Shown here one piece after another: positions 4,476-36,158 of a stretch of 36,158 nt of DNA. A program made the translations under genes and the position numbers. This stretch comes from Priapulus caudatus. Taxonomy: Eukaryota > Priapulida > Priapulimorpha > Priapulimorphida > Priapulidae. Where the stretch lies: assembly GCF_000485595.1 (NCBI RefSeq), contig NW_014577350.1, positions 244,579 through 280,736 on the forward strand. The letters are read 5' to 3'. The notes beneath the pieces are model-generated. The model worked only from the letters and a program-made list of their open reading frames with translations, was not told the origin of the DNA and searched no databases. Every line of letters begins with the position of its first letter. Positions within the stretch are counted from its first letter, which is position 1.

Positions 4476-5867
4476 GAACATTGGCTCATAGGGCGGTGCC
4501 TATCTCCGTTTCCGTAACCCTGAGGCCCGCAGCTGCTTTCACAGTAAATGCTACAGTATGGATGATATCAAGAGTTAATGAAGACAAATTTGAGAAGAAT
4601 TTGAAAGATTTGTCTTCATTATCTCCTGATGATATTGTGAGCACTACGTTACTGTGTGATCATTATGACGAGTGGTAGCACGTGCGGGAACTAGGTGATC
4701 ACGCATTGACATAAAGAGTATACCGTATTAGAAATTCGAGGGAGGATCCAGGATTTCTGGAAGGGAAGGTTCCAGTGAATGTGGAACAGATGGAGGAAAT
4801 AGTATTTTCTAGAGACACACACATTCTATCTATGTATCTGTCTACCTTACCTGTCTGTCTGTCTGTCTGTCTGTCTGTTTTTCTTTCTGTCTGTGTGTGC
4901 GTGCGTGCGTGCGTGCGTGCGTGGCTATATATTATATAGTGGCTTCATTAGAGGCCACTGCACTAGGAATTTTGTTACGTGCTTAGTCTCGTATGCCGTG
5001 TATCTTCTAGATCGACCAAGACGCAAGAGTAACGTCAATATACAGCCTTGTGTGCCGCGTCTTATCTACCTTACCTTAATTGCCTCTCTTACCTTTATCT
5101 ATTACCTTTATATATAAAAACTATATATTAGGTAAGGTAAGTACTGGTACCTTAGTTATCCTATTTCACCTAGGCAAATCTTTGCAAAGCACTAAAAAAT
5201 TCAAGAATGCAGACCCACAAGTGTGTTCCCAATCCCCTTTACCCCGACTGTGAACCATTTCTTGGAAGCTCCATCAAGAATTGCCACAAGTTCCAGCAGG
5301 CAATTATTTCGCTTGCTAATTGCGCAATCTTTCACTGAGATTGAGTTCGAAATCTCAAGCCTTGCGCATTCAATCGTCTGCAGATCGATAACTTATGGCT
5401 TGCACGATTGTCTAGAGGTGACGATCAAGAACTCACTCCGGGTACAATTATCTGCTGAGGTTACACTTGAAATCTCATTGCTTGTGTGATTATCTAGTTC
5501 TAGAGGTTAGACTTAAAAACTCATGGCTTGTGCAATTATCCACAGAGGTCATGCTAGAAAACTCGTGCCTTAATGCGCGATTATTTGTAGAGGTTACACT
5601 TGAAATCTCATTGCTTGTGTAATTTTCCAGAGGTAATGCTCAAAATCTCTATACTTGTCTGATCACTCGCAGAGGTCACGCTCGAAAATTCTCATGCCGC
5701 TATGCGATTATCTGAAGAAGTTACGCTCGAAATCTCATTGCTTTGTGTACGTATCCACAGAGGTTACAATCTCAGAAATCTTACATCTCGCGTGGTTATC
5801 CACACAGAGGTTTCAAAAACTCACTCCTTGTGCGATTATCCACGGATGTCACGCTCGAAATCTCATG
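4476..5867. repeat. 1.39-kb duplicated block, copy 2
   Basis: Near-identical to 1360-2751 at an offset of 3,116 bases, same orientation. Sequence differences include aagaactaaa against aaagcactaaa near 5186 and a few units of the 42-bp array. Here the block ends in tctcatgacttg and continues into a different, CATGTG-rich array instead of running into an exon. Confidence 0.93.
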
Positions 5868-10217: not shown

Positions 10218-10242
10218 NNNNNNNNNNNNNNNNNNNNNNNNN
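10218..10242. other. Assembly gap (25 N)
   Basis: 25 undetermined bases at the end of the TGCG array. The uniform small size suggests a placeholder for a gap of unknown length. Confidence 0.98.
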
Positions 10243-12363: not shown

Positions 12364-12510
12364 AATATATATTATAAACACGTATATAGAACGTGTTTCT
12401 CCCTGCATTTTAGAACGTCAGTAATCGGACGGTTATGCAGACGAGAATAATTCTCTCGATAGATGCACAGACTAGCCTTGCTGTGATTTACGCCTGGTTA
12501 TATATATAAT

Positions 12511-12548
12511 CAAGAGCGTATAAAGAAGGCCTTCTTTATACGCTCTTG
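12511..12548. mobile_element. Minimal CARGAG foldback (perfect palindrome)
   Basis: A 38-bp perfect palindrome whose arm is caagagcgtataaagaagg, flanked by direct repeats atataat (12504-12510 and 12549-12555). It is made only of the two fused ends of the family. It lies 105 bp before exon C'. Confidence 0.85.
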
Positions 12549-12653
12549 ATATAATAGCAGCTGGTTATAACTTGGTAATAAATGTGAATCGGGTTGGCTA
12601 ATGAAACGAGACGTCGCTGATGATTCTTAGATGCTTTTCCGTCGTGTTGACAG

Positions 12654-15139: not shown

Positions 15140-15286
15140 GAACCCGGCAGGGTGATACAGGAGGTGGACGGTGTGATTTTCAACCTCGACCAGATGGACT
15201 CTTGTGAGTCGGTGAACCGCCTCTCCGATTGGAACTACCAGATATTTGATCTGAACATGCGATACAGCACCACAATTCTCAGCCGG
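15140..15286 (+). CDS. PDE3: PDE3 exon E (start of catalytic domain)
   Basis: 147 nt, 49 codons, phase 0 at both ends; acceptor gttgtgtttcag|, donor agccgg|gtaaat. The translation begins EPGRVIQEVDGVIFNLDQMD and continues LSDWNYQIFDL and TTILSR. It aligns with the PDE3 stretch [20 protein letters not shown] and the following GRILSQ, the first helices of the catalytic domain. In PDE3 the LSQ/LSR residues lead straight into the YxLFQD segment, which is the first codon run of exon F here. Confidence 0.92.
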
Positions 15287-15347
15287 GTAAATCAAACCGT
15301 TGCGATGATCTCACTGTTTTGTTTTCGTCGTCTTGTGCACTTTTATA

Positions 15348-15470
15348 GGTGTACGCTTCTCCTGTTATACGTTGTATACATGTGTATATCCTGTGTATAA
15401 TGGGTATTATGTAGGTATGCGCTTCTCCTGTTATACATTGTATACATGCGTATCAGCTGCTTATCATGCG
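15348..15470. repeat. Two-copy tandem repeat (about 66 bp)
   Basis: The segment gcttctcctgttatac, ttgtatacatg is present at 15353 and again at 15420 with small differences. Confidence 0.8.
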
Positions 15471-15626
15471 TGTATGTAGCTAGCGACTAAATGAGCACGC
15501 ATATAAATATTTAAGTGGACAGATTCGACGTAAGAAAACTAAGTGAAATAAATAATAAATGAGCTGGTAGCTTGGGCTTCTTCGGGGACAAACTCGAGAG
15601 AGCTGGACAACATTTACTCTCCAATT

Positions 15627-15713
15627 TCCTGCTGACGTATAACCATGGGGCATTCTCGCAACCTCTCCTGCTGACGTATAACCGTGGGGCATTCTCGCAA
15701 CCTCTCCTGCTCA
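15627..15713. repeat. Two-copy 39-bp tandem repeat
   Basis: The unit tcctgctgacgtataacc, then tggggcattctcgcaacctc occurs twice in full with one substitution, followed by a partial third start. Confidence 0.85.
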
Positions 15714-16095
15714 GTCTATCTTGTCTCTCACTAACTATTTCGTAAGCATATCATCGAGAGGGAATCGCGATTCGTCGTCGTCGATCTTTCTGATACATTT
15801 TTCATCACCGGCCGCGCGCGTGGACAGCGCCTGAGTCTCTTTATTACTTCAGAGGAATACGGTGGCTGACAGCGCGAGCTTCCTTTCTGCCCCGTAGATT
15901 AGATATTGATTGGCGAAACCTAATCAACTCTGTACATGATATTTCCTTCGGCCGTCAAAGATAGCCGGAGTGTGTGCAGGATGCGCGCGCATGTGTCTAT
16001 TTCCGTGCACCGCGCGACGCGGCGAACTTAGACATGCACGACGCGTGCGGCGGCCGAGCTAGCGTATATATCGTTACTCGAGACTCGGTGTCAAC

Positions 16096-19000
16096 TAACT
16101 AACTAACTAACTAACTAACGAGTCGACTAGCGTGTCCGTCGCGCCACCGGGTAACTTTCCCGCGAGTTTAGCTATATATGCCGAAGCCATGACTATGGAA
16201 AAGTAGGTTTGCCATATGTCAGCACCACTTACGCCCGCTCCACCAATTTATTGTTGATTAGTTGCCATGGTAACCTTAACTGGGTTTGGTCCTGATAACG
16301 AGAGTGCGGGTGCCGCACCAGGTCAGACACGCGCAGTTTAGACACCGCTGTGTGGTTATACGTGTAAACGATTTTAGATTTAATGCATGTGCATATGAGA
16401 AAGTATCAAAGTAAGGGGACTTGCCTACTGGGGAACATAAATGAAGCTTCCGAAGCGTTATCTCATATCTTTGTCTTTGTCATAATCTTTGTCTCATATA
16501 GCTGCGCATAGGACTACAGTTGTTACGTGGCCTATACGCGGGGACAGTTGTATATGTCCGTGTGCGATCGTTTGGTAAACCGCGCGTTCGCCTAAATTTC
16601 GTTCGCAGACCTATGCTTTCACACGCAAGCTTTTGATACACTTACTTGGTTCCCCCCCCCCAAAAAAAATTACTTGGTTTTATCCCAAAACTGAAGTATA
16701 TATAGTGTCGTGCAAAATAGCTTCTTGTCACTATCACTTACAGGGAGATATTTTGGGACGTATAATCATTGCACGAGCATGGTTTGTGAACACCCGCATG
16801 CTCAATGTCATGTCGGTCGTGAGCACTAATATTGGGTCTGCTTTAGCTGTTATAGGTATTATTTGTTTCCGCTTATACCTAGGCTTAACTATCGAAGTAG
16901 CAGGCCTTTCCAATCTTCGACATTGAACAATTATTCGGAGAGAATTATGAGAATCTACCAATTAGAAACCGAGATTATATTTTCGTTCAGGTGCACCTTT
17001 TGTTTTCTCGTGATTTTCTAATCCCATGATAAAAGGCGCTTATTCTGCTTTGAATTTAATTTCGTTTGGTTAATATAGCTCTATGCGTAGTTGAGAATGG
17101 TAACGACAAGAATATAATAATAGGGAGAAAATTCTGTTTGATGTGGATAAGGCACCTGGGGTTTCATTGAAGAATCCCTAACGCATCACTCGTATTCAGA
17201 AAATTCTATGAATTCTCCCCAAAATGCATATTCATTAATCATTGTTTCCAAAGTTTAATATCTATGTGTAATAAGCTTATAGTATAAACTAGTAAGCTTA
17301 CATTAAATATAAATTTGTATGTGTATACCCTATTAGTAACGTACGATTAGGATAATTGGCTTAGTATCTGGTAACTTATTTGCCCAGCGCGTGTGTGTGT
17401 GTGTGTGCGTGCGTGCGTGCATGCGTGCGTGCGCGCGTGCGTGTCTGTGTGTGTGTGTGTACGTGCGTGCGTGCGTGCGTGCGTGTGCATATGCGCGTGC
17501 GTGTGAGCAAAGCTTGTCATGTTTCATCAAATAAAAGCCAATCTTGCTTGTGAGAATTCCAGTGCTACTTGCAGAACAGTTCTGCCACTTCTTTCCATCA
17601 ATGGCCCCATGATGTACGACAAAAAAGGTTTGAACTAGTGGTGAGGGCAATATATCAGATCTGGTAAAACGTAAAATATAAGAACGCCCCCAAAATGTCA
17701 TACCTCCCTCATTTTCCTGCTAGTAGATTTAACTCGCGTTTTTTTACAATCGGTTTTGCAATAATAGCAGGATTTCTACGCAATCCATGCATATATTGCA
17801 GTATATTCCAATGGGTTGTGATTATGTATAGGAAAAATGATTAAAGATGAGGGCTATCAAATGTTTAAGGTAACGGTTGAGTTAATTTTTAGTGAGTTAT
17901 GCTTAATAAATTATAGGTAGACTAATGGTAGTATGTGGAATTGTCTCTAGTCTCTTGGTTGATCATAACACTTAATCTCAGCCCTAATGATAGTGTAATT
18001 TCCATATAACAAAACAATTACTGCATGGTTGTTTGGCGGACCTCAAAAATCAATGTACTGAAAATTGGTTTTCTCAGTTTTCATTCCATTTTACCTCTCA
18101 ATAATGCAAAAATTAAATACTATATACAACTAGAGCACTCAGAGAGCGCAGACCTCCGCCAAGGCAGCTTAATTCTCTCACTGTGAAAATTTTTATTTAT
18201 TAATTATTTAATTAAATAATTAATAAATAAAAATTTTCACAGTGAGAGAATTAAGCTGCCTTGGCGGAGGTCTGCGCTCTCTGAGTGCTCTAGTTGTATA
18301 TAGTATTTAATTTTTGCATTATTGAGAGGTAAAATGGAATGAAAACTGAGAAAACCAATTTTCAGTACATTGATTTTTGAGGTCCGCCAAACAACCATGC
18401 AGTAATTGTTTTGTTATATGGAAATTACACTATCATTAGGGCTGAGATTAAGTGTTATGATCAACCAAGAGACTAGAGACAATTCCACATACTACCATTA
18501 GTCTACCTATAATTTATTAAGCATAACTCACTAAAAATTAACTCAACCGTTACCTTAAACATTTGATAGCCCTCATCTTTAATCATTTTTCCTATACATA
18601 ATCACAACCCATTGGAATATACTGCAATATATGCATGGATTGCGTAGAAATCCTGCTATTATTGCAAAACCGATTGTAAAAAAACGCGAGTTAAATCTAC
18701 TAGCAGGAAAATGAGGGAGGTATGACATTTTGGGGGCGTTCTTATATTTTACGTTTTACCAGATCTGATATATTGCCCTCACCACTAGTTCAAACCTTTT
18801 TTGTCGTACATCATGGGGCCATTGATGGAAAGAAGTGGCAGAACTGTTCTGCAAGTAGCACTGGAATTCTCACAAGCAAGATTGGCTTTTATTTGATGAA
18901 ACATGACAAGCTTTGCTCACACGCACGCGCATATGCACACGCACGCACGCACGCACGCACGTACACACACACACACAGACACGCACGCGCGCACGCACGC

Positions 19001-20329
19001 ATGCACGCACGCACGCACACACACACACACACGCGCTGGGCAAATAAGTTACCAGATACTAAGCCAATTATCCTAATCGTACGTTACTAATAGGGTATAC
19101 ACATACAAATTTATATTTAATGTAAGCTTACTAGTTTATACTATAAGCTTATTACACATAGATATTAAACTTTGGAAACAATGATTAATGAATATGCATT
19201 TTGGGGAGAATTCATAGAATTTTCTGAATACGAGTGATGCGTTAGGGATTCTTCAATGAAACCCCAGGTGCCTTATCCACATCAAACAGAATTTTCTCCC
19301 TATTATTATATTCTTGTCGTTACCATTCTCAACTACGCATAGAGCTATATTAACCAAACGAAATTAAATTCAAAGCAGAATAAGCGCCTTTTATCATGGG
19401 ATTAGAAAATCACGAGAAAACAAAAGGTGCACCTGAACGAAAATATAATCTCGGTTTCTAATTGGTAGATTCTCATAATTCTCTCCGAATAATTGTTCAA
19501 TGTCGAAGATTGGAAAGGCCTGCTACTTCGATAGTTAAGCCTAGGTATAAGCGGAAACAAATAATACCTATAACAGCTAAAGCAGACCCAATATTAGTGC
19601 TCACGACCGACATGACATTGAGCATGCGGGTGTTCACAAACCATGCTCGTGCAATGATTATACGTCCCAAAATATCTCCCTGTAAGTGATAGTGACAAGA
19701 AGCTATTTTGCACGACACTATATATACTTCAGTTTTGGGATAAAACCAAGTAATTTTTTTTTGGGGGGGGGGGAACCAAGTAAGTGTATCAAAAGCTTGC
19801 GTGTGAAAGCATAGGTCTGCGAACGAAATTTAGGCGAACGCGCGGTTTACCAAACGATCGCACACGGACATATACAACTGTCCCCGCGTATAGGCCACGT
19901 AACAACTGTAGTCCTATGCGCAGCTATATGAGACAAAGATTATGACAAAGACAAAGATATGAGATAACGCTTCGGAAGCTTCATTTATGTTCCCCAGTAG
20001 GCAAGTCCCCTTACTTTGATACTTTCTCATATGCACATGCATTAAATCTAAAATCGTTTACACGTATAACCACACAGCGGTGTCTAAACTGCGCGTGTCT
20101 GACCTGGTGCGGCACCCGCACTCTCGTTATCAGGACCAAACCCAGTTAAGGTTACCATGGCAACTAATCAACAATAAATTGGTGGAGCGGGCGTAAGTGG
20201 TGCTGACATATGGCAAACCTACTTTTCCATAGTCATGGCTTCGGCATATATAGCTAAACTCGCGGGAAAGTTACCCGGTGGCGCGACGGACACGCTAGTC
20301 GACTCGTTAGTTAGTTAGTTAGTTAGTTA
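16096..20329. repeat. Spacerless 4.2-kb palindrome
   Basis: 16096-18211 and 18212-20329 are reverse complements of each other. The centre is the sequence atttaattaaat, without any spacer. I compared both ends, the centre and several internal sites. The only differences seen are in one homopolymer pair: 10 C and 8 A at 16651-16669 against 11 G and 9 T at 19751-19773. The outer ends are runs of the tetramer taac/gtta. Inside each arm are a TG/TGCG microsatellite (17388-17508 and its mirror) and open frames that occur in mirrored pairs and match nothing I recognise. Confidence 0.96.
18130..18211 (+). repeat. Head of an interspersed repeat, cut at the palindrome centre
   Basis: ctagagcactcagagagcg, cagacctccgccaaggcagc matches the head of the complete element at 27697-28088. 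The mirrored copy occupies 18212-18293. The matching tail is found only after the palindrome (20331-20443). Confidence 0.85.
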
Positions 20330-20330
20330 T

Positions 20331-20443
20331 CCATAACTTTTTCAGTTAGGCTGTACACAAACAAACCCACAAACCAACAAGCACGCCGAACAAACACACG
20401 CCGGTGAAAACATAACCTCCTGCCAACCCATTGGCGGAGATAA
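20331..20443 (+). repeat. Tail of the interspersed repeat, resuming after the palindrome
   Basis: ccataactttttcagttagg, ctgtacacaaacaaaccc and aacataacctcctgccaac match 27965-28088. It starts one base after the last base of the right palindrome arm. Confidence 0.85.
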
Positions 20444-20508
20444 TTATTGTTAAATATTAACTATTTATTTATTGCAGTTCATCATAATTCATTCATCTTC
20501 TATTTCAG

Positions 20509-20620
20509 CTATCATATAAGGTGTTTCAAGATGTAGGCCTGTTTGAAACCTTCAAAATTCCGGTAAAGGAGTTCCTTAGCTACTTCCATGCGGTGGAGAT
20601 GGGATATCATGATAAACCAT
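20509..20620 (+). CDS. PDE3: PDE3 exon F ([13 protein letters not shown] segment)
   Basis: 112 nt, entered in phase 0 and left in phase 1; acceptor atcttctatttcag|, donor aaaccat|gtaagt (near consensus). The translation [18 protein letters not shown], then [16 protein letters not shown], matches the PDE3 run YTLFQDTGLLEIFKIP and MNYFRALENGYRDIP. The split last codon begins with T and should give the Tyr that precedes the HNRxHAxD motif encoded by exon G. The exon lies 180 bp after the end of the 4.2-kb palindrome and is not affected by it. Confidence 0.95.
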
Positions 20621-21450
20621 GTAAGTACTAGTTATTTGTCTCTGCCCCTCCCCCTATTTACGTATAGCTTCCTAGCTTGCACTTCCCTCGTACAATACAG
20701 CTGCCTGCCATCAATAGTTCAAAGTTCAAACACAGGTGCTAGGATGCATTTAATGGTCTCAAGCTCTAATGGGGTGCTATGCATGTTAACAAACTTCCTC
20801 GGCGTGGGAAGGGATCGAAGTGCAGCATCAGTAAATTTCAGCAGATCAATATTCGTGTCATTACTCTTTTTCATCAGCCGCATCTTTTATGAATATTTCA
20901 GTGCATTGAGAGTTCCCCCCCGTAGTTTAACTTTCGATTTGTGTCTACAATGAGCCGCGGAAGACACGAGTTATCGAAATCGTACGTGAGATTTTCCCCC
21001 ATAATGGCCTTGTAAATGTACGCGGTAAAGCTTGCAAATCAAAGTCGATCAAAAGCCCCATATAGCAATTGTACTGCCACTTATTTTTGCATTTTCCCTG
21101 AACAGATTTAATATTGACTGTTCTGGCTTAATACGACTGTGTTGCGTACAATACCTGATATAATCTAACAAAGCATGTAATCAAAAGCTTTCAAAATCAA
21201 GCTTTTCTCAACTTAACGTGACACAAAGCTAATGACCTACACAATTATTGCATCATCACACTATTATTGCTACAGACGTAACTAGTTGAATTGGCAATTT
21301 TGCAAATGCTGTAGTACGTATGCGCTAATCAACAAAAGTACATTTTACTCTCCCTTTTTTCCTGATTTTATTTGGTGCTATTAGTTTACATAACGTCATA
21401 CAACATCAGTTTTATCACGTTCTATTTTCTATCGTGTTTTATTCACGCTT
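20621..21450. other. Intron F-G, first part, nothing recognised
   Basis: Follows the exon F donor. The open frame that continues from exon F past the donor is a read-through shadow. No repeats recognised. Confidence 0.6.
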
Positions 21451-21670
21451 AGCGTGCATTTAAACTGGAACATTTGAATAGAAAGCGTCCCAGCATGCAT
21501 CTAAACTAGAACAGCTGAATAGGAAACATCATTGTAACTTTTGAATGGGGAGCATATCAGCTAGCATGCACTTAAACTGGAACATCTGAATAGGAAACAT
21601 ATCCCTGGAACATCAACAATAGGAAACGTCTCAGCTAACATGCATTTGAACTGGAACATCTTAATAGAAT
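21451..21670. repeat. Degenerate minisatellite (about 46 bp)
   Basis: About four diverged units of the type agcatgcatttaaactgg, aacatctgaataggaaacat. Confidence 0.8.
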
Positions 21671-21768
21671 TTACCAGGATGCGTACCTGTTGTGTCATCT
21701 AAACAATGGTGCATATGAGCTAGGATGCGCATCGGCTGTAATGAATCTAAGATGCAACCTCGAGAATT

Positions 21769-21950
21769 ACCTCAACTACGACGCAGCTCGGCTAGGTGAT
21801 TGCACTGCATCGCATTCTAAAGCGAATGTGTTTTATTCTTTTCTAAATGTCACGTTTTGTTATAAGATGCACCTCAACTCCGACGCAGCTCGGCTAGGAG
21901 ATTGCACTGCATCGCATTCTAAGGGGAATGCGTTTTCCCCGTTTCACGTT
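21769..21950. repeat. Two-copy 102-bp tandem repeat
   Basis: acctcaactacgacgcagct, cggctaggtgattgcactgc recurs at 21871 with few changes. Confidence 0.88.
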
Positions 21951-21999
21951 TTGATATACGTTTATATAATATGGCGACTGAAGCCAGCACTGAAGCAAC

Positions 22000-22655
22000 A
22001 TCACACTAGCTGAGTGGTAGCAGCCGCGAGTCGGGTCTTTGTCGGATGTGATGCGAACGAAGGGTAACGTGCAGTGGATGATTCAATCACGAAACATCAC
22101 ACCGACATTAGAGCAATGCCCGCGTCCAGTTACGGCCGTCATAATGGGCACGGATGGCTGCCACTACCGCGGAGGTGGCCATCTTTAAAACCCGTTGATC
22201 TAATCCGACGTGTTTGACAGAAACAATCACCTAACTGCGAAGGTGACCCGTGGCATTTAATCACGGGATGAGCAGTAGGCGAGATGGCCGCGGGGCAGTG
22301 CTGTCATGGCGGTGGCGGCGGCGGCGTCGTCCCGTTCATCGTTGTCGTCGTTGCAGCTGCTGCTGCTGCCACACGCAGCACGTCGCGGGTGCATCTGCGA
22401 GCAGACGCGATACAGTAACAACACCATCACGCCGTAGGAGCATCTGCGAGACGGAGCGACCGTGAGCGAAATGCGAACTTGCTTGCACGCGCGTAGCAGT
22501 TTGCCGTTTAAATTTGCGTTGCGGCGGCGGCGGAATTTCGTATGCTGACCGGTTCGTTGTTGTGTGTTTGAAGTAGGTGACGCCACGGTCTGCTTGGCGC
22601 GTGCGACTGAGAGGCAGTGCAGGCTAGACAGTATTGTGCAACGATGGTTACGATG
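22000..22655. other. CpG- and GCC-rich stretch without recognised gene
   Basis: More GC-rich than the surrounding intron, with ggcggcggcggc near 22310 and 22520. It could be an internal regulatory or promoter region, but I see no first exon with a convincing donor that would join exon G. Confidence 0.3.
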
Positions 22656-22661
22656 AGGTCT

Positions 22662-22775
22662 ATCTGTGCGTACAGCTTGGGATGCACGACGATGCAGTAT
22701 ATTTGCGTGCAGCTGGGATGCACAGCGATGCAGTTTAGCTGCCCGCAGTTTCGATGCACAGCTGTGCAGTCTATC
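22662..22775. repeat. Three-copy minisatellite (about 36 bp)
   Basis: Units of the type gcgtgcagctgggatgcac, agcgatgcagt repeat three times with decay. Confidence 0.8.
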
Positions 22776-22796
22776 ACACGTACGTGATGTTAATCT

Positions 22797-23495
22797 GTAC
22801 GCACCGCCATCTATTGATGAATTGAATTTTTATTAATTTTTAACTTTTTAACTTTTTTAAATTTTTGTTTCAGCCAGAACCACCTCCCAGACGTGCTGAT
22901 TCTGAAAATATCTTTAGTTTTCCTCTAGACTGCGGAGTTCTCTAGTTATGCGAGTACGAACTAATTCGGCTGAACAACTTTATATATACTAGCAGAAAGT
23001 ATACCCGTAGAACCAGCAAATGTTGTCTTTAAATATAAACTCCATGTAAGTGACACAAATAAAGTTAAATATTTCATGTAACTGAAAAGAAAACCACTGC
23101 ACTGGGTACAACAGAACCCTGGCACAGCTACTGGCCACTGACTACTGTGTCAGTACGGTGTACGTCAAAGCAGAGTGAGCAGGGGGGAATCTGCAGTAGG
23201 GGGGGGGGATCTGAGACGTAGCACCATCTATTGAGGAATAGATTTTTGTTTGAGCCAGAACCATCTCCCAGACGTGGTGATTCTGAATATGCTCATACGG
23301 CGGCAGTCAAGAGACGCAGTGTAATTCCCACGTATGTGATGTGGATCTGCTGTACGCACTGCCATCTATTGACGAATAGCATTTTTTCGAATTTTTGACT
23401 TAATACTTAATACTTAAACTTTTTTTAATTTTTTTCTCAGCCAGAACCATCTCCCAGACGTGGTGATTCTGAATATATCTTCAGTTAGCGCGATT
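22797..23495. repeat. Three-copy dispersed unit with splice-acceptor-like core
   Basis: The unit runs cgcaccgccatctattga, then an AT-rich stretch, then tttttgtttcagccagaacc, then tcccagacgtggtgattctg. Copies lie at about 22797-22925, 23220-23300 and 23353-23490. Copies 1 and 3 carry a strong pyrimidine tract plus CAG; copy 2 has GAG instead. Confidence 0.85.
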
Positions 23496-23582
23496 GAGTG
23501 ATAAATCAGGGCGAAAAGCGCGAACAAACAAACACACACACACACACACAAGATTAGCCAAATTATAGTATAGATAGATATA
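22979..23582 (+). mobile_element. Possible non-autonomous retroposon
   Basis: Starts with tatatatactagcagaaag, similar to the repeat end at 83-145 (minus strand). Ends gcgcgaacaaacaaacac, a CA run, then attatagtatagatagata, a style of 3' end seen in RTE-like elements. Two of the three repeat units above lie inside it. No coding capacity. Boundaries are tentative. Confidence 0.35.
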
Positions 23583-23957
23583 TATATATTGAGCGTTCTA
23601 ATTACACGGCGTTTATGCGGCCATTTGCCGTGCAGCCCCCCCCCCCACTCACTGGCCGTGGAGCCCCTCTCGAAACCACATTGTTTACGGTCGCTAGTGG
23701 CCGTGTACCTTTTAAGAGGTGATTTAATTAAATAAAATCAGTTTACATCTTTATTAAAATCTACCAATCCAATCCACCAACAGTGGTTTAAGTAGTTGAT
23801 GGGAAAATTATTTTTGGTAAACCCCGTGAGAGGTGGCATTGGATGCCCCTTCATCATGTATTTCATTTTGGCCTTGGTTGGAAAATTTTGAGAGTCAATG
23901 TCAATGATGAAGTGGCCTTGGCCCAAAACTAATGAAATTCGAGGCCTGTATATATAT

Positions 23958-24616
23958 CAAGAGCGTACAATAGAGAGCGTACAACGGTGAAATGCTGAAA
24001 CCATGTTGCAGCACCTACCTTGTTAGTATAAAACAAACCGCATACATGTCCCTACGATGCCCCTACGCTGAGATAATGAGCGGTGAAAATCTGGTATTTT
24101 CGCCGAAAACCGACTCGAGATACCTGCTGACTGCGACTGTCTCTCGCTTTGAGATAACTTCGGGAAACCTCGCGTGTTTCCGTCAATGATTGACAAATGG
24201 AATGAATGACGTCTGTTATTGATTGCCATAGTGATGACCCCCACCTGTGCCCACCTCACGCTGGATGTAGTAAACTCTGTAGTACTGACGTAATGAGTCA
24301 GCGCTACCATGGCGCTGCACAGCGGCGACCGGAAATTAACACACTGACCACAAAGCGAGAGAGGGTCGCAGCAAACAGGGATCTCGAGTCGGTTTTCGGC
24401 AAAAATAGCAGATTTTCACCGCTCATTATCTCAGCGTAGGGGCATCGCAGGGACAAGCGGTTTGTTTTATATTAGCAAGGTAGGACAGCTGATCAATAAT
24501 ACCGCTGATGAATCGTCAAAATAAAACGGGCAAAGTTTATTTTTTTAATTCGACTAATACTGCAACATGGTTTCAGCATTTCATCGTTGTACGCTCTCCT
24601 TCTTTTTACGCTCTTG
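23958..24616. mobile_element. CARGAG foldback element, long-armed (659 bp)
   Basis: Starts caagagcgtaca and ends tacgctcttg. Long imperfect inverted arms of about 200 bp: gcccctacgctgagataatg on the left pairs with cattatctcagcgtaggggc on the right, and cgactcgagat pairs with atctcgagtcg. The central part (about 24160-24350) is unpaired. Flanks are AT runs, so the target duplication cannot be defined. Open frames in the arms mirror each other and are not genes. Confidence 0.88.
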
Positions 24617-24641
24617 TGTATATATATATATATATATATAT

Positions 24642-24705
24642 CAGGAGTAGATAATAGGGAACCTACTATGGGGAGGTACTATCTACTATAGGGAATCTAC
24701 TCCTG
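24642..24705. mobile_element. Minimal CAGGAG foldback element
   Basis: caggagtagataataggga on the left pairs with tagggaatctactcctg on the right. It sits in an AT run directly after the 659-bp element, suggesting repeated insertion into TA-rich sequence. Confidence 0.8.
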
Positions 24706-26525
24706 ATATATATATAAGAGTCTATGTTTATGCGTATAACTTGCACAGTTAGTGTCGGTTCGTTATGTCTGGCAAATAATTTCTTGATTTTTTTCCCCAG
24801 TATGACATTTTGAGTTCCGAAAATTAAATGAGATAACCGAGTGATATGAAACTGCGAGCATACATAGCCGGCTGTAATCTATTGGCAGCATTACCTGTTG
24901 GATAAACCCAATCTCATGTTTTCACCTTCTGCTGCGCTCCACGTGAATTGTGCAATATCGCGTTTCACAAATTGTCTCGCAAATTGCTCTAGTCAGGTAT
25001 TTATTTCTTCATATATATACGCACTCTGGTGACGGATGCAGGTTTCTTTGCTGCTTGCACGTCAGGCGAAGATACGATCTGAAGACATGTGTCATCATCA
25101 GTTTCGATTCTGCATGCGTTTATATATCCATACATCCGTGAAGATATGTCTAGATCTTGAACAAACCATAATGTTTCATGTTCTATTGATAATGATCTTT
25201 GATTCTATGAAACATCGAAATCATGTGCCCTATCCTATCATTTGTGAGAGAATATAAGAAGTTAAACCATTGCTACACCATTCATGTTCCCTAAATAAAT
25301 GTGTAAATTCGGAGTAAATTATACCACTAAATGCATAGTTTATTATTAAAAGATTTACTTGTTTATTATGATTATTACGGAAACAAAATGTCAATTTTAT
25401 CTGCGCGAGAAGAATATTGCAAATAGAAAATACAACTATAATGCGAATATACAAAAGCTGTGCACACACGCGCGTGCACGCGCGCTCACACGCATGTGAA
25501 ATGTAATGCCTTTATTGTTATGCCGCAAGTTGCCTTTATTAGACCTGCCGGAGAAATCACCTGTCCAACAATTTGTGCACAACACGTGTGACACTGACAC
25601 CTTATACCATTGCTTTCATTCAGTAATTACTATAATGGGATAATTAACTATTTCAAGTAGATGAACTCCCGTGAAGTTGAGCCCTAATCTGCACCTAGTG
25701 GTGTGCTGTATACGTAGTAGTTACTACCTTTTCATTTTATCACGAATAATAACCAGGAAAATACAAGACGCCATTTGCAACAAGAGAGAATTTTCAGTGA
25801 CGGTGCACATCTTGGTTGTCACATGCAGGAAGACAGAAATTAGTGAATACATATCGTTTTAGAAACCTCAACAGACTCTGCCTTATCACGATTATCTTAT
25901 AGAGCCTACTAACACCTCGTAAATTCTGTGTGGTGGACACGCACACGCACGCACGCGTACACACACATAATATAATCATATATAATATATCAATATACAT
26001 ATATATATATGGGTGCGTGTGTGCGTGCGTGCGTGCAATCCCACTACGACTGTATAGCATATGATGATTATACATTTTTAGACGAAGGCCTGTTCAGCAC
26101 GAAGCCTCTGACGCCCACTCCATCTTATTCCATATCAACTTTATGAGTAGCCCCTGGCCAGCACAGTTCTAAAATACACCATTAGTTCGGATTATTTTGG
26201 TACATGATTACGCTCACGTACGTGCTAACCTAATTCGCCCGCGTGAGTGTAAAACCAAACCTAGCTGTTCCTAATGCTTACTCGATGCTGTAATGATATA
26301 ATGTCTCTCAGTCGTTCCATTCCCTGCTTGAACGGGGCAACCATGCAGTAGTCGGTCGGTACATTTGATGCACTCAGAGTTGGGCATTTTTTTCGATGCC
26401 GTATAGGCGCGTTACTCATTTTCACAGCTTTTTCAGTGCTAACATTCACTTGCAGTTCCGCTTGCAAATGTAAACCAGTCGATAGGATGTTATATTAGAG
26501 AGGTCAACGACGACGGCGTATAGAG
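24706..26525. other. Intron F-G, later part, nothing recognised
   Basis: Contains only short CA, CG and AT microsatellite runs (25465-25495, 25937-26035). No coding or RNA gene recognised. Confidence 0.6.
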
Positions 26526-26542
26526 CCTCTCTCGTCTCGTCT

Positions 26543-26576
<34 letters not shown>

Positions 26577-26799
26577 TTCTCTTGTCTCTTTCTCTTAGCT
26601 CTCTCTCTCTCTCTCTCTTCTCTTCTTCTCTTCCTTCGTCTCGCTCTCGCCGTCTCGCCCTCTCCCCCATTCGGTCTCCCCATCTCTCTTCGGTCCTATC
26701 AAACCGCCCATCTACCCGTCTTTCGTCTACCTCTCGTCTGCTCCCTTCTCTCTCTTCCCTCTTCTCTCTCACTTCTAACCCCACCTCCCTCGCTCTCTC

Positions 26800-26843
<44 letters not shown>

Positions 26844-26970
26844 CTCTCTCTCTCTTTCCCTCTCGCCCTCTCCTTCTCTCTCCCACTCCCTCTCTCCCCC
26901 TCTCCCTCTCTGTCCCTCTCGCCCCTCCCCCCCCTCTCATCTCCTCTCCGCTCTCTCGTACCTCGCTCTT
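26526..26970. repeat. TC-rich polypyrimidine tract
   Basis: About 445 bp, almost all C and T on the + strand, with pure CT runs near 26545-26571 and 26810-26855. It ends about 75 bp before the exon G acceptor. The long open frames on both strands (SLSLS or RERER repeats) are artefacts. Confidence 0.95.
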
Positions 26971-27046
26971 TGCGATCTGCTTGCGTCTACAAAGATAAAC
27001 GTTCGTTACTTCAACACGTCTTCCGGCCTGCCTGTGGCGGTTGCAG

Positions 27047-27176
27047 ATCACACCGGATGCACGCGGGCAGTACGTGCTGCACGCCGGTTCTACTATCTCA
27101 CCTCGCAGCGCGATCCCCGGATTTCAGGCAGATTGGTGGCCGGACTTGAGGCCTCTTCTGTACAGACAGAACCCAG
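27047..27176 (+). CDS. PDE3: PDE3 exon G (HNRxHAxD metal-site motif), frame broken by small indels
   Basis: The acceptor is tggcggttgcag| and the donor is acccag|gtgcga. This exon must carry the phosphodiesterase signature with the catalytic His and the first metal-binding His. The bases clearly derive from codons for YHNRMHAADVLHAVYYLTSQ followed by RIPGFQ, but no single frame reads them. Relative to that expected reading one base is missing near 27052, and extra bases sit near 27067, 27072, 27088-27090 and 27111. From about 27113 the frame is good again (IPGF, then WPDLRPLLYRQNP) and ends in phase 1. Net change is +4 bases: 130 nt are present where 126 would give the required phase 1 to phase 1 exon. 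The exon directly follows a 440-bp TC-rich tract, a typical place for poor polishing. The end of the exon starts the PDE3-specific insert. Confidence 0.85.
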
Positions 27177-27253
27177 GTGCGATAGTAATGTCGACGCTGC
27201 GTGTCAACAGCGCTCGGTTTAGGTGGCGCTATTATATAATATATTAGGAATTC

Positions 27254-27271
27254 GCCTATTATCTACTTCTG
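27254..27271. mobile_element. Solo end of a CAGGAG foldback
   Basis: gcctattatctacttctg is the inverse of cagaagtagataataggc, one mismatch from the 24642 element end. The partner arm is not clear. Confidence 0.45.
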
Positions 27272-27351
27272 ATATATATATAATATGTATATGTGTATAT
27301 ATGATATATTACTATTATATATATATATATATTATATATATATTATATATA

Positions 27352-27393
<42 letters not shown>
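27272..27393. repeat. AT and (AAT)n microsatellite
   Basis: A TA-rich run followed by uninterrupted taa/aat units from about 27357. Confidence 0.95.
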
Positions 27394-27696
27394 TGTAAGT
27401 GTTTAGTAAATTGTCGTATTCCCGCAGTGATAAGAGATGAGGTGACTAGGCCACCATATTGGTCAATTAAGAATCTGTTTTATGCCTGTTAATAAAATGG
27501 ATAGGTAAACCTAGGGGCGAGTGCTAACTAATCAAAAAAAAACTAAAACATTAAGAATAGTTCAATAAAAAATTTAAAACATGTAATAAAAACTTGCTTT
27601 TTTAAAAACTTTTGTTAACAACAAAATCTAAAAAATTCTTAAAACTAACTTTAAAAATTCCATTTCCATTTTCATTAGGCAAAAACTATAAACAAA

Positions 27697-28088
27697 CTAG
27701 AGCATTCGGAGAGTGCAGACCTCCGCCAAGGCAGCTCAATTGTCTCCTGGTGATGAACATTTGTATTAATTAATTAATTAATTAATAACTTAATTAGGAT
27801 CTGGATCATCACCAAAAATGTCATAAATTTGTGATAGTTCACCCGCATTTCTGACGTTTCCTGAAAATTTTATTAATTAATTGGATCCGGATCACCACCA
27901 AAATTGTATGAATTCTAAGTTAACCCATTTCTGACCTAGCTATCCTGAAAATTTTATGACAATTCGCCCATAACTTTTTCAGTTCGGCTGTACACAAAAT
28001 AATACAAAGAAACGCACAAACCCACAAACCAACAAACGCGGGTGAAAACATAACCTCCTGCCAACCCCTTGCCCTTGGCGGAGGTAAT
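27697..28088 (+). mobile_element. Complete copy of the interspersed repeat with CCTCCGCCAAGG ends
   Basis: Head ctagagcattcggagagtg, cagacctccgccaaggcagc; tail aacataacctcctgccaacc, cttggcggaggtaat. The segments cctccgccaagg and ccttggcggagg form an inverted pair near the two ends. The interior includes ggatccggatcaccacca. Similar sequences are, as far as I recall, widespread in aquatic invertebrate genomes; I do not assign a superfamily. Confidence 0.75.
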
Positions 28089-28230
28089 CAGACGAGTGAA
28101 CATTAAGTTCTATCTGTCCTCGCTATACCAACATACATTGAAATAATGTCCAATCTCTTTATTGTCAATCCATGCTGATAATTCAATTTGTGTGCTCACA
28201 AATATTGCGGCCACCTGACATGACATAGAG

Positions 28231-28251
28231 GCTCTCTATTATTCACTCCTG
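28231..28251. mobile_element. Solo end of a CAGGAG foldback
   Basis: gctctctattattcactcctg is the inverse of a caggagtgaataat end, followed by atatgata. Only one arm seen. Confidence 0.45.
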
Positions 28252-29790
28252 ATATGATAGGGTGGGAAAGTAAATGAAACCGTGTCAACGACAACAGTAG
28301 GTCGTGTCACTTGGTGAGATTTCGGCGAGGGGGGAAGTGCATGCTGCTAGACTAGTGTCCAAAAGGCATGTTCGTACGTCCGATAGCCGTATTTGATCAG
28401 TACGTAAATAAAACAGACCGTATTTCACGCCATGCATAATTCATTCAACGAGAAAATTGCTGTCGTGCTATACACAACACAGTCTACTGATTCTAGTCAT
28501 GGTTTTTGGTGGGTATTTCTTTACAGAAAAGTACCGTCGTACGAGGAGGTTTGCACGTCCACGTGTACACACGCTCAATCAGTACTTAATCCGTTTTGCA
28601 AGCAATGCTGCTGCCAATTAAATTTGCATGGCTTGTAGTGGCATTTTTACGTGGCTTCAGCAAATGCTAGAATCGGCAGGAGATACGAAACGATCGCCTG
28701 GGTGCATCGTTGGTATCGTTGTATCGTTGGTATAAAGGTGTAGTGGATTGCTGTCAAGTCATCAAATTTTACGTTCTGTGTCACGTCACGACAGACTGTG
28801 AATGAATTTCAACAACTTGTTTGAACTCCCCGATCTCATGCAGTGGGCCGTGTACCAACATTTCATCGGCCCCGGATCTTGCAGCATATAGGGCTTTTTC
28901 ATACACCTGTTCCCCTGCTGCCCGAATCACACACGACTAGGATGTGGTTCGAGAAAGGGCATATATCGCCGTGATTTTCTTCCTTCCTCAGAACCAGGCA
29001 ATTATGTATGGAATGGTTGCCATTAGGCGTCAAATTCATGTTATCTTAACGGGAAATCCCATTACGGCGTACGTATACAGACGCGGGCGAGACGTGACGT
29101 CACCCGCCGGGATATGTTATGCTATGTTCTCGTACTTGTCGGTGTCCATGCACTGCACTGGATATAGTGAGCAATGGTGTAGGACGGGATGTGACTAGAC
29201 TATAGATGGTGTTAGAATATATCGATGTGCGCCCAACGTAAAACTGAAGAGAATGCGGTGAAACGGTATAATGCAGTCAGTGTGCTCCTGGAACTAGAGA
29301 TGGCATGTGAATAATTGAGTCGTGAACCTGTTTTGAACAGGTTGAAGTGTACTCAAATATTCCGCAAGTCTTGGACGAGCGTTCATAAAACTGAGAAGAT
29401 TACATATAACATAGATATATATGTATAGTATTTTTATGTAGGGCAATGCATAAATGTTTACCAATTTTGTTATTTCGATGTTTTAGTAGACATGAAGTCG
29501 TCTTTTATGGTTGTGGTTAGTCTGCGATACTCCTCCTGCAATCCTTCTGTCCGTTCATGTATTTTAAATTGTGCCTCCATGCGTGGCCGTCCACCCTGCG
29601 GTAAATAGTAAGTAGGGCAATTAGGTAATATGCCACGAGTGAGATCAAATGTAGTGTATCTAATGCCGTCGTCTATTAACTAGCATAACATGACAAAAGA
29701 ACTCTAAAACATACTTGCTAGACAAAACTCTAGTAAGTATTTTATGCAATGCACTGCCGACTATATAGACGACTAGATTCGTAACTATAG
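28252..29790. other. Intron G-H, middle part, nothing recognised
   Basis: No repeat, RNA gene or coding segment recognised. Open frames at 28432-28638 and 28944-29198 have no known similarity. Confidence 0.6.
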
Positions 29791-29797
29791 TCAGTAT

Positions 29798-29851
29798 CAA
29801 GAGCGTATAAAGAAGGAAAGAGCGTATATATACATTCTTTATAGGCTCTTG
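29798..29851. mobile_element. Minimal CARGAG foldback, 7-bp target duplication
   Basis: Starts caagagcgtataaagaagg and ends ttctttataggctcttg. Flanked by tcagtat (29791-29797 and 29852-29858). The flanks are not AT-only, which makes this the clearest target duplication of the family together with 32600-32693. Confidence 0.88.
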
Positions 29852-30028
29852 TCAGTATGCAGCTACTAAATAACTAACTCTACACGCGTAGGCACTATAT
29901 AGTCCCAATTTCCGCCACATGTACTGCCGTAGGCGAATAGCTCCACGAGTAGAGATTTAAAAAAAAGTCGCTCTGTATCATCAATGTCTCGTATATTATA
30001 CCTTAGTGAGTATGTTCCTGTAAGTGAA

Positions 30029-30251
30029 GCTCATAGGGTCTATGTCCCCCAGGGTACTGCCGGAACGTACACTGGTAACTATCTGATATGGTTAGGGTTA
30101 GGGAGTAAGCGTAGGCGACTCCCTAGACTCGTTAGTGGAGTAGGCGAGGTACGGTCCGGCATATTAGATAGTACCAGGGTACGTTCCGGTATACCGGACC
30201 GTACCCAGGGTACTTTTCGGCAGTACCCTGGGGGACATAGACCCTAGGAGC
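30029..30251 (+). mobile_element. Mutator-like MITE carrying TTAGGG repeats, copy 1
   Basis: Inverted ends start gctcatagggtctatgtccc and continue cagggtactgccggaacgta; the right end is the inverse with a few changes. The flanking 9-mers are gtaagtgaa (30020-30028) and gtcagtgaa (30252-30260), 8 of 9 identical. A 9-bp duplication with long inverted ends suits Mutator-type elements. It holds two telomere-type hexamers (30090-30103). The open frame 29984-30247 is not a gene. Confidence 0.82.
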
Positions 30252-30940
30252 GTCAGTGAACGGTAGTGATTCCCATTGGGCTTAGTGAATACGGCTTGAT
30301 GCGGCGCGCGTTCTCATCACGTGCTGCTACATTGCTGTTTTGTTTTTCATTCTACCCGTTGAAAAACTTTAAAGTAAACTGAAGAGATTTTCACGGAGAA
30401 ATTATGCGGTTTATACGCACGTCAGGCATTCAAATTACGGGCATTCCGCGCTTGCGTGCTTCAGCTGTGCTCACTTCTTTGTGGCGCATTTATTATATGC
30501 ATGAGAGATGAATTTCCTGGAAGGTGTTTTGATTAACGCTTGACGACTTGGAGAATGAGATCAATAATATTGGACAGCGATATTGTACACTTATTCACGG
30601 CAGACTGTCCGAATTAAATGTGTCTCTGTATCACATTGGAAGTGCCTAAAAACAGGCATTTGTTTTTTTATTCACTTATGATCAGATGCTGTCATTAAAA
30701 TCAGGAACACCTATTCAACATTTGAAACAGTGTATGAAAACTGAATACATTATTTTTTATGTAACCGAATATTTTGCTGTAACATGTCCTTAAAAATGTC
30801 CTTGGCATTTTGCCGAAGCCTAGGGCATATAGAACAAATCTAATGATCAGTCTCGAGGGGGATTGTATAGTTAGCAGTACATTAATTACATTATAATACG
30901 TTATGTTCGCGAGAAAAGACTGTCTAGTATCAGGACTCAG

Positions 30941-31078
30941 GAATATCATATTATAGACTCTATAGATCTCTATAGAGGAGAGTCATAACAGACTCTATAG
31001 ATCTCTATAGAGGAATGTTATAATATAGATAATATATATCTCTATAGAGGAATATCATAATATAGACTATATAATAAT
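30941..31078. repeat. Three-copy minisatellite (about 37 bp) with internal palindrome
   Basis: The unit agactctatagatctctat, agaggaatatcataatat repeats three times. Each unit contains the palindromic core ctatagatctctatag. It ends about 95 bp before exon H. Confidence 0.85.
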
Positions 31079-31174
31079 ATTTTATATGTCTTTAGATGTC
31101 TATATTTATGACACGCCTGCTAGTATCAATTAGTACTACCTATATCTCTGTACGTGTGTTACTCTCCTTGGCAG

Positions 31175-31347
31175 ATGGGATGGTCTTACTGAGTAGGCCC
31201 AGCTTTCAGGCGGAGGACAGCTACGGCATTGTCGGGGGCAACTTTCCTGCTCTCGAACTGATGGCAATGTACACTGCTGCAGCGATGCACGACTACGACC
31301 ACCCGGGCAGGACCAATGCCTTCTTAGTCACTACCTTTGCTGAAAAT
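31175..31347 (+). CDS. PDE3: PDE3 exon H (PDE3 insert and HDYDHPGRTN motif)
   Basis: 173 nt, entered in phase 1 and left in phase 0; acceptor ctctccttggcag|, donor gaaaat|gtgaga. The translation starts GMVLLSRPSFQAEDSYG, the second half of the PDE3-specific insert, then GNFPALELMAMYTAAA, then MHDYDHPGRTNAFLVTTFAEN. The His-Asp pair of HDYDHPG binds the catalytic metals in class I phosphodiesterases. All conserved residues are present. The insert, counted from LTSQ (exon G) to ALELMA, is a few residues shorter than in mammalian PDE3 and little conserved apart from the ESYG-like EDSYG. Confidence 0.97.
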
Positions 31348-33539: not shown

Positions 33540-33849
33540 GCTGATAGGGTCTATGTCCCCCAGGGTACTGCCGGAACGTACCCAGGGTACGGTCCGGTAT
33601 ACCGGAATTTACCCTGGTACTAAATACTACTATCTAATATGCCACACCGTACCTCGCCTACTCCACTAACGAGTCTAGGGAGTCGCCTATGCCTACTCCC
33701 TAACCCTAACCCTAACTCTAACCCTAACCCTAACCCTAACACTAACCCTAACCATATCAGCTAGATAGTTACCAGGGTACGTTCCGGTATACCGGACCAT
33801 ACCCAGGGTACGTTCCGGCAGTACCCTGGGGGACATAGACCCTATCAGC
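33540..33849 (-). mobile_element. Mutator-like MITE carrying TTAGGG repeats, copy 2
   Basis: Perfect 44-bp inverted ends starting gctgatagggtctatgtccc. Flanked by a perfect 9-bp duplication agcagtaag (33531-33539 and 33850-33858). The interior is in the opposite orientation to copy 1. It contains about nine ccctaa hexamers at 33698-33753, two with a substitution. No coding capacity. Confidence 0.92.
33698..33753. repeat. Interstitial telomere-type (CCCTAA)n array
   Basis: About nine units inside the MITE 33540-33849, with ctctaa and cactaa variants. It is internal to a mobile element and does not mark a chromosome end. Confidence 0.95.
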
Positions 33850-34334: not shown

Positions 34335-34565
<231 letters not shown>

Positions 34566-34991: not shown

Positions 34992-35174
<183 letters not shown>

Positions 35175-35600: not shown

Positions 35601-36158
35601 GTACTCAGTCTACAGTCAGCTATCATCTGCAGCTAACCTATGACTTCATCCGCCTGTTTAGCAGTTTATTTAATATCTGTGACTCACAGGTGTCTGGCAT
35701 TCAGTTTTTTTCTGGTATCTCACCCATCTTTTTAATTGCAACTACTGTATAGATATTTGTCATGCCGACGGTCAGTATGCAGTCTTAGCTTTAAGCATAA
35801 TTCCTGTCCAGCCCGCAAAAATTCGAGCGTTTGTGCATTAGCTGTCCCTTGCTTGAGGTAGTTCCAATTTCAGTTTTCATTTGACATGACATGATGAATA
35901 TTAATAAAGTGTTCTCGCCTGAGAGATGCCCCTCTTTTTTAATATATGATCAATGGTGAAGAGACAGTTAAATCAACGGTTTGAACATAAGAGGTAAATA
36001 TATTTTTTATGTTTCAGTGGGCAAAATGGGCAAAATTTTCCTACGACGTGAGACCTTTCACCAGTGACACTGAGCCTTGTCAACATTGCGTCACTACTGT
36101 TCTTACGTAAAAGGGACATTGGCCGTTTGGCCCTCAATAGGATATTGTAATCTTGTAG
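35601..36158. other. Intron after exon J, nothing recognised
   Basis: No continuation of PDE3 was found. A good acceptor-like gtttcag at 36011-36017 is not followed by PDE3-like sequence. Confidence 0.65.

Follow-up and report, generated by a model that had tools for sequence, protein, structure and literature searches.

Fold-back artefacts, known from reads obtained with long-read libraries or after multiple displacement amplification, consist of a segment followed by its own reverse complement, with little or no spacer and a single turning point. Palindromic blocks have also been met in a draft animal assembly, the 2013 assembly of Adineta vaga, and were largely not found again in the genus: one of these gene-scale palindromes is reported from another, low-N50, A. 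vaga assembly (PMC7749112), while a further study gives none for A. ricciae, its authors being undecided between biology and method (PMC5916493). Palindromic AT-rich repeats (PATRRs) have an AT-rich and spacerless centre, and the fold-back inversions of yeast and cancer contain an inverted copy that turns at short self-complementary DNA. We have analysed a locus which shares traits with all of these, a spacerless palindrome at positions 16096–20329 of a 36,158-nucleotide stretch from the priapulid Priapulus caudatus (assembly GCF_000485595.1, contig NW_014577350.1, positions 244,579 to 280,736; hereafter the window), located in an intron of a PDE3-like gene. The right arm of this palindrome is, in our judgement, likely to be an artefact of the same DNA having been read or assembled twice, a verdict that rests on the form of the sequence and on the faults found nearby.

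The likeness to each of the described systems is accompanied by a difference. Fold-back artefacts are known in reads, whereas here the inverted segment stands inside an assembled scaffold, between unique flanks that belong to one gene, and a further misjoin is needed. The A. vaga palindromes are blocks of homologous gene copies, whereas the two arms found here, of 2.1 kb each, are spacerless and match perfectly. For PATRRs a length of several hundred bp and an AT content above 90% are described (PMC7999016); in the present case only the centre has such a composition, and the arm, with a GC content of 39.7% (a fraction of 0.397), differs from a PATRR in this respect. Finally, in respect to the fold-back inversions of yeast and cancer, the inverted copy studied here measures 2.1 kb, and lies, in the assembled sequence, between the original flanks.

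Alignment of the window against itself with BLASTN confirmed the coordinates, the absence of a spacer and the near-identity of the arms that had been proposed in an earlier, first-pass annotation of this DNA. The segment matches its own reverse complement over 4236 columns with 99.906% identity, 0 mismatches and 2 gaps. The left arm (16096–18211, plus strand) has 2116 bp and the right arm (18212–20329, minus strand) has 2118 bp, the latter being the exact reverse complement of the former except for two homopolymer lengths, each longer by one base; no substitution separates the two. In agreement with what the same annotation had stated, these additions in two adjacent homopolymers are the sole differences, and the arm alignment places them at a C10 A8 pair in the left arm (16652–16669), to which T9 G11 corresponds in the right arm (19754–19773, both as read on the plus strand), with C10 standing against C11 and A8 against A9. 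The exact core of the palindrome comprises 2 × 1550 bases around a centre at 18211/18212. Ten of the 12 listed simple repeats of the arm, such as (GT)8, (TG)7 and (CGTG)6, lie inside stretches that are identical between the arms. The palindrome is not due to chance, since the next-longest perfect palindrome of the window has 42 bp, and when 20 first-order Markov sequences as long as the window were examined, the longest one of each had between 12 and 18 bp.

That second palindrome, at 12509–12550, is also spacerless, with CTGGTTATA on both sides, and exceeds every palindrome of the 20 Markov sequences.

The two junctions of the large palindrome fall at sequences of unusual composition. At the centre, the sequence ATTTAATTAAAT is embedded in a longer AT stretch (18182–18241), and the final 30 nucleotides of the arm are 93% A+T, a richness found in only one of the 2087 30-mers of the arm and in 0.41% of the 30-mers across the window. 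The outer ends lie in simple repeats of 24 bases, a (TAAC)6 array at the left (16096–16119) and a (GTTA)6 array at the right (20306–20329, both given on the plus strand). The alignment of the two sides ends beyond these arrays, and there the similarity stops; perfect microsatellites of at least 20 bp occupy 397 of the 31924 positions outside the palindrome (1.2%). Both junctions therefore stand at sequence-directed places, which fits a template switch in the cell as well as a graph or overlap error of an assembler. The array at the outer ends had not been used in the first-pass annotation, and it suggests how the reversed copy came to meet the right flank. A search of the right flank against the arm for a trace of the true join between them gave a best exact match of only 11 bases (E-value 0.15).

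The base composition of the strands gives an indication of which arm is original. Outside the palindrome the plus strand mostly has more T than A, the AT skew of 14 non-overlapping windows ranging from −0.129 to +0.009. The left arm, with an AT skew of −0.078, resembles most of the surrounding sequence, whereas the right arm has +0.078, a value not attained in any of 554 overlapping windows of 2117 bases taken outside the palindrome (maximum +0.035). As the left arm follows the local skew and the right arm exceeds the values of all these windows, the left arm is probably the native copy, in native orientation, and the right arm the one that was added. The 167-base right flank, which extends from the palindrome to the next exon, speaks to the contrary, being itself A-rich (AT skew +0.143). 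The GC skew of the arms is uninformative, being within the spread of other windows. It must be noted that the contrast in AT skew says nothing on whether the palindrome is real or artefactual, as both possibilities predict the same pattern.

The placement of the palindrome within a PDE3 intron, as given in the first-pass annotation, also holds. Using as tblastn query a catalytic segment of human PDE3A, we have located a PDE3-like exon (E) whose conserved part, at 15194–15286, is followed by a GTAAAT donor, and another (F) at 20509–20620, on the same plus strand. Exon F is well supported (E-value 6e-14, 61% identity; 112 bases, ending in phase 1), and exon E, a weak match when taken alone (E-value 0.072, 45% over 20 residues), was retained on account of its position, its reading frame and the donor that follows it. 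The intron comprised between them, 15287–20508, has 5222 bases, 81% of which are occupied by the palindrome. Further downstream on the plus strand, exon G (from 31210) matches Pfam PDEase_I as well as solved PDE3A and PDE3B chains, and PDEase_I is also matched at 34335–34547 and 35034–35171. These matches result from a Pfam scan of nine translations, including the two longest open reading frames (ORFs) of the arm, in which the 36 residues of exon F had no family match. For one of the PDE3 exons, 128 of 129 candidates proved to be homologues; among the matches listed, the best had 84% identity and a trout protein 71%.

Inside the PDE3-like gene, at 33698–33753, there is also an interstitial telomere-like array of imperfect CCCTAA (9.3 copies), which lies between inverted repeats at 33540–33622 and 33766–33849 and has related copies at 30023–30255.

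The window contains other faults, the most telling of which is the lack of a PDE3 exon. An HNxxHA motif is common to the PDE enzyme class, and the exon carrying it, expected after exon F, was not found at 20620–31210 or elsewhere in the window. When all six frames of the window were searched, no exon with an HN-type, DVLHA or VWYLT pattern emerged; the two least stringent patterns yielded six matches that look unrelated, of which five are on the minus strand and the sixth, at 35713, lies downstream of the other exons. The best score obtained with a 28-residue peptide from the exon sought was 42, on the minus strand at position 170, to be compared with scores of 139, 113, 112 and 48 for control peptides from four other exons, the 48 corresponding to the weakly conserved exon E and being near noise; DNA patterns for the start of the expected exon were likewise absent from the window. 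In respect to the Pfam model, exon G aligns to PDEase_I from position 27, and positions 1–26 are not covered by any translation scanned, as is also the case for positions 58–61, 131–140 and 184–238. Moreover, exon F ends in phase 1 and exon G, judged by eye from the nearest acceptor, starts in phase 0, and therefore a direct join of the two breaks the frame. The sequence of the missing exon is either absent without a marked gap or placed elsewhere, and its unmarked loss during assembly is likely.

Beside the missing exon there are a gap and a direct duplicate. A single run of exactly 25 N is present at 10218–10242, and 25 N is described as the shortest run counted as a gap by the gap filler PBJelly (PMC3504050); that this program was used for the present assembly is a guess. 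Overfilled gaps are also described in PMC8848313. The direct duplicate, of 1.4 kb, is formed by 1360–2751 and 4476–5867, which start 3.1 kb apart, have unlike flanks and are 98.7% identical, 1.3% of the columns differing, with 8 mismatches among them. It may have arisen by a recent duplication, or its copies may be two alleles that were placed one after the other.

Taken against this background, the form of the palindrome agrees with that of a fold-back artefact: the second arm maps to the place of the first on the opposite strand, and over 2116 bases there are no substitutions and only two homopolymer indels of one base. The absence of substitutions together with noise restricted to homopolymers is what is expected of two readings of one DNA, and contrasts with the other large duplicate of the window and its 1.3% of differing columns. 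An artefact is favoured also because the same window has the 25-N gap and lacks the HNxxHA exon. The first-pass annotation had put an artefact first and a real duplication second, and the evidence gathered here leans the same way, although it stops short of proof.

The true locus would then probably consist of the left flank, the (TAAC)6 array, one arm, the AT-rich stretch and the right flank, perhaps with further unassembled sequence in between. The turn would have occurred at the self-complementary AT-rich stretch near 18211, either in a fold-back molecule or by a strand-flip in the graph used for assembly or gap-filling, and the path would have retraced 2.1 kb on the opposite strand as far as the (TAAC)6 array, a simple repeat through which it could have been joined to the sequence that precedes exon F. 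The snap-back which had been proposed earlier needs to be qualified in this respect. In its self-primed form it would leave an unpaired loop as a spacer, the centre of such hairpins being described as having 4–6 unpaired bases (PMC7999016), but the ATTTAATTAAAT centre permits a turn free of any loop; the spacer loop would be missing because the turn fell inside naturally self-complementary DNA. Events of this type are described at appreciable rates. Fold-back reads are given as about 0.55–0.6% of nanopore genomic reads, those flagged with more than 11 bp between the segments being typically under half (PMC12870357), inverted-repeat chimeras are given as 0.18–7.33% in ligation libraries (PMC13141652), and palindromic chimeras are described as arising after whole-genome amplification (PMC6218980, PMC13265396).

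A number of observations, however, weigh against an artefact. The fold-back explanation depends on the sequencing technology behind the assembly, which we infer, and in the data set out in PMC12870357 the PacBio HiFi and Mas-Seq samples are virtually free of fold-back reads, with Iso-Seq at 0.03%. Both outer flanks belong to one gene and are in the right order and strand, whereas the complement of the left flank is what should stand at the end of a simple fold-back read, and exon F can be reached only through a second misjoin. In addition, the location of the junctions at an AT-rich centre and at a microsatellite also fits a template switch in vivo, and a randomly sheared end with a missing adapter is not expected to fall at the AT-richest point. 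The lack of substitutions between the arms also fits a very young real duplication.

Such a duplication, real and very young, is the alternative that survives best, although we regard it as unlikely. In this case a 3′ end, in the course of replication or of the repair of a break, would have folded onto itself at the self-complementary AT-rich stretch and copied 2.1 kb of its own strand; a switch at the (GTTA)6 array onto the template downstream would then have completed the event, so that the arm and its reversed copy came to lie between the original flanks. This route accounts for flanks that lie in one gene in the correct order and for a centre and an outer end that are both at sequence-directed sites; it would also leave one arm with the local AT skew and the other with the reversed one, but an artefact predicts the same. 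Comparable events are described in yeast: in cells deficient in Mre11 or Sae2, inverted repeats as short as 5–9 bp, separated by spacers of 3–12 bp, are able to cause palindromic duplication (PMC7999016), and there is support for fold-back priming, close to double-strand breaks (PMC10622511), as an origin of inverted duplications (PMC10622511, PMC7999016). On the other hand, the risk of breakage is described as rising with the length and the similarity of the arms and where the spacer is short or lacking (PMC7999016). A perfect palindrome with arms of 2.1 kb would thus be expected to tend toward loss or to trimming at its centre, whereas the comparison of the arms revealed no asymmetric centre, central deletion or arm substitution, and only a very recent origin would suit a real copy. 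The other assembly faults of the window speak against it as well.

The insertion into the intron of a transposon that consists entirely of long terminal inverted repeats, of the fold-back type or resembling a miniature inverted-repeat transposable element (MITE), would explain the symmetric structure and the defined outer ends, but is very improbable. Beyond the arrays no target-site duplication is recognisable by eye, GTGTCAAC standing against TCCATAAC, although the array might hide one. The two longest ORFs of the arm matched no Pfam family at the cut-off (DUF2544 reached 16.8 bits against 25), and only a GT-rich stretch of the arm recurs near-identically in the window (megablast settings, E-value up to 1e-5). 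Fold-back elements, moreover, usually carry a middle segment. Rfam gave no family at the gathering threshold and ARAGORN gave no genes; a motif near the centre which resembles a dispersed repeat matched no viral contigs, and a literature search yielded nothing on the subject.

Elsewhere in the window, an inverted repeat at 24014–24151 and 24351–24484 (138 columns, 89% identical, with about 200 bases between its arms) is possibly a small transposon.

A heterozygous inversion written out by the assembler in both orientations is hardly credible and was rejected, for even if the 98.7% direct duplicate may consist of serial alleles and makes a confusion of haplotypes plausible here, substitutions would be expected between haplotypes and the arms have none, and an inversion would place the array at the centre or bring the AT-rich end to an outer junction, neither of which is seen.

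These results have consequences for the use of this region. The absence of the catalytic exon means that a PDE3 gene model built from the present sequence would be wrong. If the right arm is artefactual, as is likelier, the stretch is unfit for estimates of intron length, for duplication counts and for predictions of RNA hairpins or editing. That the PDE3 intron really carries a recent palindrome copied by fold-back, which would be transcribed as a 2.1-kb hairpin whenever the gene is expressed, appears doubtful; if real, however, it would represent a long, perfect and spacerless palindrome within a gene, on which the formation and the tolerance of DNA of this kind by animals could be tested directly.
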